Shown here in pieces: positions 9,895 to 13,246 of a stretch of 64,000 bases of DNA. The position numbers were made by a program, and so were the translations under genes. This DNA is from Alphaproteobacteria bacterium (GTDB lineage Bacteria > Pseudomonadota > Alphaproteobacteria > Micropepsales > Micropepsaceae), in the NCBI GenBank assembly GCA_947475445.1, contig CANJLC010000002.1:1-64000 (forward strand). Direction: 5' to 3'. Each line of letters starts with the position of its first letter. The stretch's first letter is position 1. The notes under the pieces are model-generated. The model ran no database searches. It was not told the DNA's origin and was given only the letters and a program-made list of their open reading frames with translations.

Positions 9895-10003
9895 TCACGG
9901 CGCAGATTTCAGGCTGATTGAACCGATGCCCGCCGCGACATTCAGGCCCTTGGAGCCTTCGACGCTGAGGGGCTGCAGGGCGATGGACGTATCAAAGCCG
10001 CCC
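9895..10003 (-). pseudogene. 3' remnant of a DUF992-type gene
   Basis: On the minus strand these bases encode about 35 residues, from [16 protein letters not shown] onward to SISLKSAP and a stop. They are nearly identical to the last 35 residues of the intact DUF992 gene at 12764-13246 ([10 protein letters not shown]...SISLHNAP). The remnant has no start and ends abruptly next to the stop codon of the TauE gene at 10005. It marks a junction where the 5' part of a DUF992 copy was replaced by the persulfide module. Confidence 0.85.
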
Positions 10004-10004
10004 C

Positions 10005-10778
10005 TCAGCGCAATATCCCAGCGGACGATTTCCACAAGACAAAAGCGGCAACCAGGATCACTGCGGCCGCAAAACTTTTCGACAACACGCCGCGTTTTTC
10101 CGATAGGCGAACGGACAGTTTCACACCGGCCAACCCTCCAGCGATGCCGCCCAGGATAAAAATACCGGCCACCCGCCAGTCGACCAGCCCGGCCATGGCA
10201 TAGGTCGCGGCAGTTGTAAGGCCGAAGACACCGACCGAGACCAGTGACGATCCCACGGCATTAATGGTCGCCATGCCGCTGCCCAGCATGATGGCGGGCA
10301 CAATCAGGAAGCCCCCGCCAATGCCGAAAAAGCCCGACAGGAAACCCACGATCAGCCCTGTGCCCATGAGGCGAAGGGCAATGGTGCGGTCGATATGGAC
10401 CAGAGGGTCGCCAGCCGCAGCGCGACCGCCAAACATGCCTGCGGCGACCGCCACCATCACCAGCCCGAACAGGAACAGGAGATGCTGGCCGTCCACATGC
10501 CGGCCAAGGAATGCGCCCAGGGCGGCACCCGCAATTCCCGCAAGGGCAAACACGATAGCGCATGGCCATTTCACGGTTCCGGCATGTGCGTGCGAGATAA
10601 GGTTGGCGAAGGCATTGACCGACACGGCCAGTGCGCTGGTGCCGATGGCGACATGGGTGTCCCTGACACCCACCACGTAAACCAGCAGCGGCACCGCCAG
10701 AATCGAACCGCCCCCGCCCAGCAAACCGAGCGCGAATCCCACCAGGGAACCTGAACCGAAGGTAACCAGCTCGCCCAT
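10005..10778 (-). CDS. TauE/SafE-family anion exporter (sulfite/sulfur oxyanion)
   Basis: The product is 257 residues with seven or eight predicted membrane helices. The family repeat is visible twice: GFALGLLGGGGSILAVPLL near 14-32 and GFLSGFFGIGGGFLIVPAI in the second half. TauE/SafE proteins export sulfite or related C2-sulfonate products; beside a persulfide dioxygenase the likely cargo is sulfite. The ATG at 10778 overlaps the rhodanese stop (TGATG), so the two are coupled. The stop codon touches a DUF992 remnant. Confidence 0.85.
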   Translation of the reverse strand: MGELVTFGSGSLVGFALGLLGGGGSILAVPLLVYVVGVRDTHVAIGTSALAVSVNAFANLISHAHAGTVKWPCAIVFALAGIAGAALGAFLGRHVDGQHLLFLFGLVMVAVAAGMFGGRAAAGDPLVHIDRTIALRLMGTGLIVGFLSGFFGIGGGFLIVPAIMLGSGMATINAVGSSLVSVGVFGLTTAATYAMAGLVDWRVAGIFILGGIAGGLAGVKLSVRLSEKRGVLSKSFAAAVILVAAFVLWKSSAGILR

Positions 10779-11311
10779 CACGCGGACAGCCGGTTCCATG
10801 GCATCAGGCCCAATATTCTGGCCATGCCGCACCAGCCTGAGATGCCGGCAAAGACAAAGCCGCAGCCGACAAAGGCAGTCAGGCCCAGGAACAGCGGGGA
10901 CACAAGCCATGCCAGCAGGAGGCCGGCCAGGATCAGCAGGCCAGCGGTTATCTGGACCTGCCGCTGAAGTTCGATCGGCTTGGTGCGGTCGATGCTTGTG
11001 GAATAGCCGGCGGCCTTCCAGCCCGAAAGTCCCTCTTCCAGAATATATACTTCCGGCACAACGCAGCTGCGAAGGCGATCCGCATTGTCAGCGGTGCGCC
11101 TGCCGCCCTGGCAGTGGAAGATCAGCGCGGGCGTGTTCGCACCTCCTAGCGCCGACACGGCCCTTGCATCGAAGGTGGACAGCGGGTGCAGCTGCGCGCC
11201 GGGGATCGCCTCGCGCGCATGTTCCATCGGCTCGCGTATATCGACCAGAATGGCCGAGCCATTTGCCAGGCGGCGTTTTGCTTCCACGGGATTGATGGTG
11301 GCAAGGCTCAT
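10778..11311 (-). CDS. Rhodanese-domain membrane protein with DUF2892-like C-terminus
   Basis: The product is 177 residues. The rhodanese domain spans about 5-105, with FHCQGGRRT holding the active-site Cys that carries the persulfide. Two membrane helices follow at about 122-141 and 145-165, giving the DUF2892 hairpin seen in many sulfur-metabolism rhodaneses. It probably moves sulfane sulfur between persulfide and thiol acceptors at the inner membrane. The ATG at 11311 is 8 bases after AGAGG; an alternative ATG at 11317 overlaps the bigR stop. Order bigR-rhodanese-tauE suggests one transcript. Confidence 0.85.
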   Translation of the reverse strand: MSLATINPVEAKRRLANGSAILVDIREPMEHAREAIPGAQLHPLSTFDARAVSALGGANTPALIFHCQGGRRTADNADRLRSCVVPEVYILEEGLSGWKAAGYSTSIDRTKPIELQRQVQITAGLLILAGLLLAWLVSPLFLGLTAFVGCGFVFAGISGWCGMARILGLMPWNRLSA

Positions 11312-11316
11312 CGTCA

Positions 11317-11631
11317 TTACCTCTTGCAATAGATTTCGTGCAGCACATCCAGGATGCGGGCCGCATCGGGATTGGCGATGCGATAGAAAACCGACACGCC
11401 CTCACGGCGAGTTGCTACCAGCCCGCTTTCACGCAGTTTGCCCAGATGTTGCGACAACGCCGACTGGCTTAGGCCGGAACGTTCCACCAGTTCCCCGGCC
11501 AGACGCTCGCCTTCCACCAGGTCGCACAAGACGCCCAGCCGGGCTTCGTTGGACAGCGCAGCCAACATTGCGGCGGCCGAACCGGCGTGTTTGCGCATCG
11601 TTCTCAAATCTTTGGCCTTGGCCATGACCAT
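11317..11631 (-). CDS. bigR: BigR/YgaV-type ArsR repressor, persulfide-sensing
   Basis: The product is 104 residues with winged helix LSQSALSQHLGKLRESG near 54-70. Two cysteines, Cys36 (VLCDL) and Cys102 (IYCKR at the extreme C-terminus), match the pair that forms a disulfide or polysulfide bridge in BigR-type sensors and releases DNA. In Xylella and Agrobacterium BigR represses an operon with blh, a rhodanese-like protein and a sulfur exporter, the same set found here. It is divergent from blh across an operator at 11656-11675. Confidence 0.88.
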   Translation of the reverse strand: MVMAKAKDLRTMRKHAGSAAAMLAALSNEARLGVLCDLVEGERLAGELVERSGLSQSALSQHLGKLRESGLVATRREGVSVFYRIANPDAARILDVLHEIYCKR

Positions 11632-11650
11632 CAGCCCTTTCCTTTGGCTC

Positions 11651-11680
11651 TTGTAATATTAGATATGTCTAATATATATT
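11651..11680. promoter_or_regulatory. BigR operator and blh promoter
   Basis: A perfect dyad ATATTAGA-TATG-TCTAATAT lies at 11656-11675 between divergent bigR and blh. On the plus strand TTGTAA (11651-11656) and TATATT (11675-11680) are spaced by 18 bases, so the dyad would occupy the promoter spacer. The AT-rich palindrome resembles known BigR sites, which regulate both directions. Assignment to BigR is inference from position and family. Confidence 0.7.
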
Positions 11681-11702
11681 CAAGTGGCGACGGAGAAAAA
11701 CC

Positions 11703-12563
11703 ATGAAGCCCGCTATCCAGGCATTTTTCGACGAACAGACATTTACGGTCACCTATCTGGTGAGCGATCCGGTGGCGCAGCGGGGCGTCATAATAGACCC
11801 GGTGCTGGATTTCGACCCCAAATCGGCCCGAACGGCCACGCGATCTGCGGACCGGCTGCTCGCTGCGGTGAAGGAGGCCGGGCTTACGGTCGAATGGATA
11901 TTGGAAACCCATGCCCATGCCGACCATCTGTCCGCAGCGCCTTATCTCAAAACCATGACAGGCGCCAAAGTTGCGATTGGCGAACATATCAAGGACGTGC
12001 AAAAGGCCTTCGCGCCAATTTTCGATGCGAAAGATGTCACAGGCGACGGTGCCCAATTTGACCGGCTCCTGAAGGATGGAGAAACGCTGTCCGTTGGCGG
12101 ATTGGACATCGAAGTGATGTATACGCCGGGACATACACCCGCCTGTGTCAGCTACAGGATCGCGGACAATGTCTTTGTCGGCGACACCTTGTTCATGCCC
12201 GATTACGGCACGGCCAGGGCAGATTTCCCCGGTGGCGACGCCCGTGCATTGTATCGTTCAATCAGGCATATCCTGTCGCTTCCCACGGAAACCCATCTGT
12301 GGATGTGTCACGACTACAAGACGGCCGGCCGCGAAGATTATGCCTGGCATTCCACCGTGGGCGAAGAGCGGGCGCTGAACGTCCATATCCATGACGGGAT
12401 TGGCGAGGAGGCATTCGTGGCGATGCGGACAGCGCGCGACAAGACCCTGGAAATGCCGGTTCTTATTTTGCCATCGATCCAGGTAAACATTCGAGCAGGC
12501 CAGATGCCGCCCAAAGACATGAATGGAGAGGTCTATCTGAGGCTGCCCCTGAACAGGCTTTGA
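11703..12563 (+). CDS. blh: Persulfide dioxygenase, ETHE1/Blh-type MBL fold
   Basis: The product is 286 residues. The MBL motif THAHADHLS is at 69-77; further ligands are His144 (GHTP), Asp161 (VGDTLF) and His203 (CHDY). The GTARADFPGGDA stretch (169-180) is diagnostic of ETHE1-like enzymes, which bind one iron and oxidise glutathione persulfide to sulfite. No DUF442 or rhodanese domain is fused; the rhodanese is a separate gene in the divergent operon. The start is ATG at 11703 after CGGAGAAAAACC. Expression is expected to rise when BigR is oxidised by persulfide. Confidence 0.92.
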   Translation: MKPAIQAFFDEQTFTVTYLVSDPVAQRGVIIDPVLDFDPKSARTATRSADRLLAAVKEAGLTVEWILETHAHADHLSAAPYLKTMTGAKVAIGEHIKDVQKAFAPIFDAKDVTGDGAQFDRLLKDGETLSVGGLDIEVMYTPGHTPACVSYRIADNVFVGDTLFMPDYGTARADFPGGDARALYRSIRHILSLPTETHLWMCHDYKTAGREDYAWHSTVGEERALNVHIHDGIGEEAFVAMRTARDKTLEMPVLILPSIQVNIRAGQMPPKDMNGEVYLRLPLNRL

Positions 12564-12703
12564 GCGGGGTGGTTCAGGCAAGGTCGAAAAGGCTGCTCCC
12601 CAGAATTGGCAGCCGGCTGCCAATGTCCGCTTTGGGTCCAACGCGGGCTTTTGCTTCTCTACGCAAAGGGTTTGCCCATCGCTCAACGTAGGGCGCACAT
12701 GGC

Positions 12704-12738
12704 AAAAAGCGCCGCCGGATAAATCCGGCAGCGCTTTT
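12704..12738. terminator. Bidirectional terminator between blh and DUF992 gene
   Basis: AAAAGCGC and GCCGGAT (12705-12720) pair with ATCCGGC and GCGCTTTT (12723-12738), with one internal mismatch and a two-base loop. T runs flank both sides, so it can end both the rightward blh transcript and the leftward DUF992 transcript. Confidence 0.8.
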
Positions 12739-12763
12739 CACTACGATAGGGCAGTTTGACCGT

Positions 12764-13246
12764 TTACGGCGCGTTATGCAGGCTGATCGAACCGATGCCC
12801 GCCGCGACATTCAGGCCCTTGGAGCCTTCGACGCTGAGGGGCTGCAGGGCGATGGACTTGTCGAAGCCGCCGGTCAGGACATTGGCGCCGAGGCCAACGC
12901 CGACAGTGGCCTGGGCGGACGCGCCCACATAGTCGCCATCCAGGGCGCCCTTGCGCATGTCGGAGGTGGGCGCGAACACGCCCCAGACCAGGACGCCGCC
13001 CTGGGTATAGCCGACATCGACGCCGAACTTGGGGATGGAGCCGGTGTAATGTTCATACTTGCCCGTGCCGCCGCGATAGGTGCAGTGCAGGTCCTTGGAG
13101 GAGCCGAACACAAAGCCCCAGCCGCTGGCGACATTGCAGGTCAGTTCGCCGACGCGAACGCCATGCGGGGCAGCGGAGGCCGAACCGGCAGCCGCAATGC
13201 CGGCAACGGCGATGGCGGCTGTCATGATCAAGCGAAGTTTCGTCAT
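12764..13246 (-). CDS. DUF992-family secreted protein
   Basis: The product is 160 residues with a Sec signal peptide ([16 protein letters not shown]...SASA, cleavage near 25). The mature part has the DUF992 pattern: [19 protein letters not shown], later CTYRG, and a glycine-rich beta repeat that ends SISLHNAP. The family is common in alphaproteobacteria, is likely periplasmic or outer-surface, and has no known function. The ATG at 13246 follows AAGGAGAG. A truncated 3' copy is present at 9895-10003. Confidence 0.85.

Follow-up and report, generated by a model that had tools for sequence, protein, structure and literature searches.

Homology-facilitated illegitimate recombination, in which foreign DNA is added through one homologous and one illegitimate end, has been described in S. 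pneumoniae, A. baylyi, P. stutzeri and E. coli conjugation, mostly with 3-10 bp of microhomology (PMC3240628). In Vibrio type VI secretion system (T6SS) clusters, and also at rhs loci, it has been proposed that displaced gene 3' ends and orphan immunity genes lie behind inserted effector-immunity modules (PMC5361080). The bigR operon of Xylella and Agrobacterium, in turn, combines a repressor, a persulfide dioxygenase and a sulfite exporter (PMC5823870). In this study, all three systems are compared with a stretch of 64,000 nucleotides from an uncultured alphaproteobacterium (hereafter the window; positions 1 to 64,000 of contig 2, CANJLC010000002.1, assembly GCA_947475445.1), in which four sulfur genes, tauE, a rhodanese gene and bigR on the minus strand and blh on the plus strand, sit between an intact DUF992 gene (copy B) and a displaced 3' remnant of that gene (copy A). 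We give about an even chance to an insertion of this module with one homologous and one illegitimate end, which would have left behind the displaced DUF992 3' end with its terminator. The mechanism is an ordinary one of gene acquisition, and the locus is a legible example of it rather than a new mechanism.

As in the homology-facilitated cases, the proposed event has one homologous end, one illegitimate end and foreign DNA added; unlike them, where a recipient deletion of similar size is usual in the cases covered by that source, recipient sequence is here retained and partly duplicated (PMC3240628), and the event is a natural one inferred from a single genome. Since the usual deletion is not seen, the event can be said to work like homology-facilitated illegitimate recombination, with membership in that class not proven. 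With the Vibrio T6SS modules it shares a new module adjoining a conserved stretch and an old 3' end displaced downstream as an orphan; as far as those modules are described in the source, it differs in that the cargo is a metabolic operon, the host gene is complete and there is no array of successive remnants (PMC5361080). The features on which the argument rests are as follows.

9895 to 10008, minus strand: DUF992 3' remnant (copy A), 38 codons including the stop; 102 of 114 nt identical to 12764-12877
12764 to 13246, minus strand: intact DUF992 gene (copy B), 160 amino acids; Pfam PF06186, 169 bits; pre-core part plus core sister to relative G009 (98/89)
9920 to 9988, minus strand: 69-nt stretch identical to 12789-12857 in the alignment of the two copies
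10005 to 10008, minus strand: CTGA common to the TauE stop region and DUF992 codons 124-125, a joint with possible microhomology, from comparison with relatives' TauE ends
9838 to 9894, minus strand: downstream region and terminator of copy A, 3' of tauE (minus) and sdpI (plus); hairpin of -24.5 kcal/mol, z -5.98; homologous to 12702-12763
12704 to 12763, minus strand: terminator and 3' flank of the intact DUF992 gene, which converges with blh; hairpin of -31.9 kcal/mol, z -7.13
8682 to 8704, plus strand: 3' end of rlmE (AKSARG-stop) with the left arm of a former terminator, the right arm gone; by-eye alignment with relatives

A preliminary description of the window had reported a 109-base DUF992 3' copy against the TauE stop codon and sulfur genes bracketed by DUF992 3' ends in the same orientation. 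The copy is real and slightly larger, comprising 114 nt with its stop codon and corresponding to codons 124-160 plus stop of the intact gene, and alignment confirmed the bracketing. The TauE stop codon (TGA, 10007-10005) lies within the first few bases of copy A. A repeat search returned 124 nt at 89% identity with a spacing of 2869, and a gapped alignment carries the similarity on through the downstream terminators (9838-10008 against 12702-12877, 177 columns, 83%, E 2.6e-44). Three features go beyond that description: the repeat includes the terminator, an SdpR/SdpI-like operon stands on the remnant's other side, and the identity is concentrated in 69 nt. Four codon changes between the copies are non-synonymous and four synonymous or stop-to-stop; the whole genome (2.17 Mb, 29 contigs, 98.4% complete) has just these two DUF992 matches. 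No coding role is evident for copy A; to judge by the anatomy of the locus, the bigR-rhodanese-tauE transcript likely ends in it and uses its terminator.

The perfect run between diverged flanks suggests that recombination or gene conversion probably acted within DUF992. When the core is counted as 68 nt (9920-9987 / 12789-12856), copies A and B differ at none of its 68 sites, against 12 of 46 flanking sites (16/21 and 18/25 agree on the two sides; Fisher p 7e-6), and an identical run of 69 columns among 176 columns with 35 differences appeared in 0 of 100,000 shuffles, or in 4 of 100,000 with the coding part alone. For comparison, 68 relatives of the same genus were used (labelled G001 and so on, the window's genome being G000); in a species tree of 31 genomes the window's genome groups with G025 and G009 (support 100 for the three, 63 for G009 alone). 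Among 29 compared relatives the lowest core difference to the window was 6/68, with matches of 62/68 in G009, 61 in G016, 60 in G081, 55-57 in G079, G086, G092 and G036, and 51-54 in G091, G077, G001, G089 and G066. The DUF992 gene of G006 (L156, 5263-5706) has one in-frame TAG within an otherwise conserved stretch, and G006 was excluded from the core comparison because of this stop. Grouping the pre-core part and core of copy B with the G091 group was rejected in the approximately unbiased (AU) test (p-AU 9.5e-48). Since the core is closest to G009 and the gene body is sister to G009, the duplicated sequence looks like the host's own. Import of the remnant with a core from the module's relatives was unsupported, the core being of host type, in a comparison that lacks two of the nearest carriers, G085 (no DUF992 match) and G006 (left out).

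DUF992 is present in 60 of the 68 relatives, and 60 loci were fetched from 58 of them (G061 and G075 were left out; G026 and G028 gave two loci each, and further second or third matches, e.g. in G029, G084 and G035, lie outside the sample). Half of these loci, 30 of 60, have an rlmE/guaB context (28 with rlmE in view); the other 30 have neither gene in view. All 30 rlmE/guaB loci are single-copy for DUF992, and tblastn with the module proteins and the SdpI-like protein found no match in them; no module protein stands beside DUF992 in any of the 60 fetched loci. The nearest species, G009 and G025, have an empty site with the order rlmE-DUF992-guaB, rlmE ending about 50-70 nt from DUF992. Tandem DUF992 pairs occur at three of the loci away from rlmE/guaB, in G027 (L142), G023 (L146) and G021 (L149), and the idea of a tandem pair at the site before the module arrived thus finds no example among the 30 relatives at this locus. 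The preliminary description had also named tandem DUF992 genes with the module elsewhere as a case that would speak against it; this case is realised by half, since DUF992 is absent beside the module in the 20 module loci fetched from 19 relatives, and the tandem pairs were seen only away from rlmE/guaB.

The gap between the convergent core genes rlmE and DUF992 is a place of repeated insertion, since it measures within about 140 nt in 20 of 28 relatives and is widened to 340-2,619 nt in eight (G022, G016, G012, G084, G068, G079, G066 and G006). Ten insert proteins from six of these gaps were scanned (G012 and G084 lie outside the scan): a methyltransferase and one protein without a family in G016; a sigma factor, a zinc-finger anti-sigma-like protein, a phosphoesterase and a cupredoxin in G079; a shortened cupredoxin in G066; a prephenate-dehydrogenase-like protein in G006; and one protein without a family each in G022 and G068. 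As cupredoxins occur in both G079 and G066, these two inserts need not be independent. A DUF992 3' copy is absent beside all eight inserts; direct repeats around them are short (E 0.008 or worse), and the insert-to-DUF992 matches in widened gaps measure 20 and 29 nt (E 0.003-0.004) on the opposite strand. Matches at 100% over 110 and 62 nt in G012 and G066 do not count as repeats, as they arise where the two query stretches overlap in short gaps. A literature search on insertion hot spots between convergent genes or at terminators found no paper.

As for the module, Blh at 56% identity or more occurs in 20 of the 68 relatives, and no Blh above 42% was found in the close relatives G009, G025, G081 and G090. 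Twenty module loci were examined from 19 of the 20 Blh-bearing relatives, six of them on contigs of only 3-9 kb; G069 was left out because its Blh matches are fragments, as was a second Blh of G070. None of these loci, several of them on short contigs, contains DUF992, rlmE or guaB. In a module tree of 20 rows the window's module falls in a set with G079, G085, G006, G036, G086 and G092 (99/99), and in a narrower set with G079, G085 and G006 (71/96); forcing it together with the carriers of its own clade, G014, G070 and G071, costs 39.7 log units (p-AU 0.0275, a moderate result). Given this grouping outside the host's clade, the module was likely, though not provenly, acquired horizontally from another member of the genus. 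Relocation within the same lineage is held less likely, because the four close relatives have no Blh above 42% and the module tree conflicts with the species tree. A palindrome in the spacer behind blh (about CGAATGTCCGCTTTGGGTCAAAAGCGGACATTCG; window 12620-12650), dispersed in some genomes of the genus (loci L201-L225), was tried as a donor marker and proved indecisive, since it is frequent in G066, G085 and G079 and also present in the sister species G009: its 19-base half, with at most 2 mismatches, occurs 48, 38, 33 and 13 times in these genomes, 2 times in the window's genome and 0 times in 48 of 69. The copies are clustered on some contigs, in G085 some stand immediately 3' of blh (by eye), and the 14-base heart had no match in the literature searched.

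Taken together, we propose that the bigR-rhodanese-tauE/blh block entered the lineage horizontally from another genus member and settled in the gap between convergent rlmE and DUF992. At one end the join would have come about through homologous recombination within the identical DUF992 core or close to it; at the other, the TauE stop would have been linked illegitimately to codon 124 of DUF992 through a microhomology of 4 nt, so that intact DUF992 would now adjoin the module and the displaced 3' end with its terminator would lie beyond tauE. For the homologous joint speak the identity run and the host-type body and core, and the placement of copy B's tail leaves no alternative rejected. At the other joint, TauE ends in GCGC TGA in G079, G006, G086 and the window, and intact DUF992 reads GTC CTG ACC at the matching place; the common CTGA falls within the 3-10 bp range of PMC3240628 and, being short, is weak evidence. 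On the rlmE side, several relatives (L052, L131, L132 and L134) have the rlmE stop codon within the stem of a terminator common to convergent DUF992, so that the last RlmE residues are encoded by the terminator, and in the window no hairpin formed after rlmE in a folding test (z 0.43), which detected the terminators of both copies that a simple terminator scan had missed. The earlier suggestion that a duplication or recombination event delivered the module is thus borne out in part: among the loci seen, the module stands here only in the window's genome, the site is empty in the nearest species, the trees conflict and the identity pattern is recombination-like; that a single event brought module and copy together, the order of events and the copy that carries the native tail belong to our interpretation.

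Several observations weigh against this proposal. A recipient deletion is usual in such events, and here rlmE, DUF992 and guaB are all present, no deleted gene is seen, and all that is missing at the site is the right terminator arm on the rlmE side. Overlaps of 4 nt often arise by chance. The core is generally conserved: in G009, too, differences from the window are relatively fewer there (6/68) than at the flanking sites (11/46; Fisher p 0.034), and the shuffle test takes no account of this. No genome was found with the module beside DUF992 among the 60 DUF992 loci and the 20 module loci. The group used in the AU test on the module was picked after the first module tree had been seen, and its rows G014 (47%) and G071 (25%) are under half filled, two of 8 such rows among the 20 of the module tree. 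The tails are equivocal too. In pairwise scores copy B's tail is best with G091, G077, G001 and G089 (88.5-83.5, the G091 group giving 88.5), ahead of G008 (73) and G009 (67.5), and copy A's is best with B itself (79.0), then with G009 as the best relative (75.5); if taken, these scores would imply a foreign tail in B, brought with the module, and would make A the displaced native end. The best tree of tail and terminator (92 columns) instead places B with G008 (95/93), none of five placements is rejected (p-AU 0.146-0.319), and over a 190-column stretch A with B (p-AU 0.419) and A with G009 (0.245) both stand. Because tree and AU tests did not support the pairwise scores, a donor assigned from them is kept as a lead only. 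Moreover, the rlmE half-terminator resembles the terminator of copy B more than that of A (by eye), which would make B's tail, not A's, the native one.

The main rival, possible yet distinctly doubtful in our judgement, is a local partial duplication, in which the module would have been inserted through an error of replication or repair (template switching) that placed a DUF992 3' end and terminator on either side of it, with later drift and with conversion preserving the core. It would account for two cores that are identical and of host type, for A and B being mutually nearest, by path, among the rows of the 190-column tree, for A's best pairwise tail score being with B, and for the ACGGT that directly follows the stop codon in both copies; it requires a later conversion event for the identity run, however, and the tails are about as far apart as those of different species (A and B agree at 18/25 sites, G009 and B at 19/25). 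A literature search on partial duplication with conversion brought nothing to the point. The resemblance of the rlmE half-terminator to that of copy B, together with the spacer palindrome that is frequent in G079 and G085, would also suit an import of the whole 4-kb block (SdpR-SdpI-like genes, remnant, module and spacer) as one piece, the remnant having formed earlier in a close relative outside the sample. This we consider unlikely, as base composition differs between sdpI (GC 0.53) and the module (0.56-0.64), the remnant core is identical to the host gene, and the SdpI-like gene has no close match in the 68 relatives.

That an older tandem DUF992 pair stood at the site, the module replacing the 5' part of the distal copy, seems improbable: such pairs do occur in the genus (G021, G023 and G027), yet at other loci, and none of the 30 relatives has one here. 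Gene-end-targeting elements leave an intact gene, cargo and a 3' copy, and the topology of the locus would fit an integrative element using the DUF992 3' end as attachment site; no recombinase was found by Pfam among 10 proteins scanned over 7030-14946, including the six genes of the 4-kb insert, the repeat arms have diverged, and the eight other widened gaps have no DUF992 3' copy beside their inserts, so that we regard such an element as highly improbable. On a further reading, which we hold rather unlikely, the pair of DUF992 3' ends might act as a recombinase-free exchange site, the identity run being the footprint of continuing exchange. A computed crossover in the 69-nt stretch releases the whole sulfur module on a 2,869-bp circle and leaves an intact 160-residue DUF992.

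The genes between the two copies, and those on the other side of the remnant, are listed below.

8827 to 9156, plus strand: ArsR-type, SdpR-like autorepressor; NCBIfam NF033789 at 98.3 bits, just under the cut-off of 100; Pfam HTH_5
9108 to 9857, plus strand: SdpI-like membrane protein; Pfam SdpI, 50.6 bits
10005 to 10787, minus strand: TauE/SafE-type exporter; Pfam TauE, 158.5 bits
10778 to 11311, minus strand: rhodanese with YgaP-like membrane domain; Pfam Rhodanese, 45.8 bits, and YgaP-like_TM, 34.4 bits
11317 to 11628, minus strand: BigR/SqrR-like ArsR repressor; NCBIfam BigR at 86.8 bits, below the cut-off of 155; Pfam HTH_5
11703 to 12563, plus strand: Blh-like persulfide dioxygenase (ETHE1-type) without DUF442; NCBIfam Blh at 391 bits, model positions 141-423 of 423, below the cut-off of 625
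12564 to 12703, no strand: spacer with a degenerate copy of the dispersed palindrome (about 12620-12650), from matches in related genomes

By Pfam, the insert genes are ArsR, SdpI, TauE, rhodanese, ArsR and metallo-beta-lactamase fold. As judged from these families, the module resembles the hydrogen-sulfide detoxification genes of the bigR operon, with which it shares a BigR-like repressor, a Blh-type dioxygenase and a TauE-related exporter; unlike that operon as described, its Blh is without the DUF442 sulfurtransferase domain, the rhodanese is a separate membrane protein and blh is divergent from bigR (PMC5823870). The three proteins occur together, BigR and Blh scoring below the NCBIfam equivalog thresholds (for Blh, that of the two-domain form), and the two-domain DUF442-ETHE1 architecture of Blh was not found, the match being limited to the part of the model given above. 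The BigR-like repressor has two cysteines, in VLCDL and IYCKR, which may correspond to the two sensing cysteines known from repressors of the bigR type. Three distant relatives of blh were found on viral contigs.

The SdpR/SdpI-like pair is probably a separate insertion, as judged from base composition and relatives. Its operon (8827-9857) has a GC of 0.53-0.54, against 0.64-0.69 around it and 0.56-0.64 in the module stretches; the SdpI-like protein has weak domain matches (28-47%) in 12 of the 68 relatives, and its stop codon falls within copy A's terminator, in the left arm. At Rfam gathering scores the window gave tRNA only. In the literature searched, DUF992 is mentioned in one paper. Similar DUF992 in named records comes nearly always from metagenome-assembled Alphaproteobacteria, one close record being labelled Rhizomicrobium sp.

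If the two DUF992 3' ends did serve as an exchange site, RecA alone would suffice for the module to move out of and into genomes, with the host gene always restored. The locus offers a readable case of a metabolic operon entering a bacterial chromosome with no integrase in view, one arm of the module now ending at the terminator in the neighbour's leftover 3' end and the other running towards that of the intact gene. In uncultured bacteria, remnants of this kind could be a means of dating such insertions and following their course.

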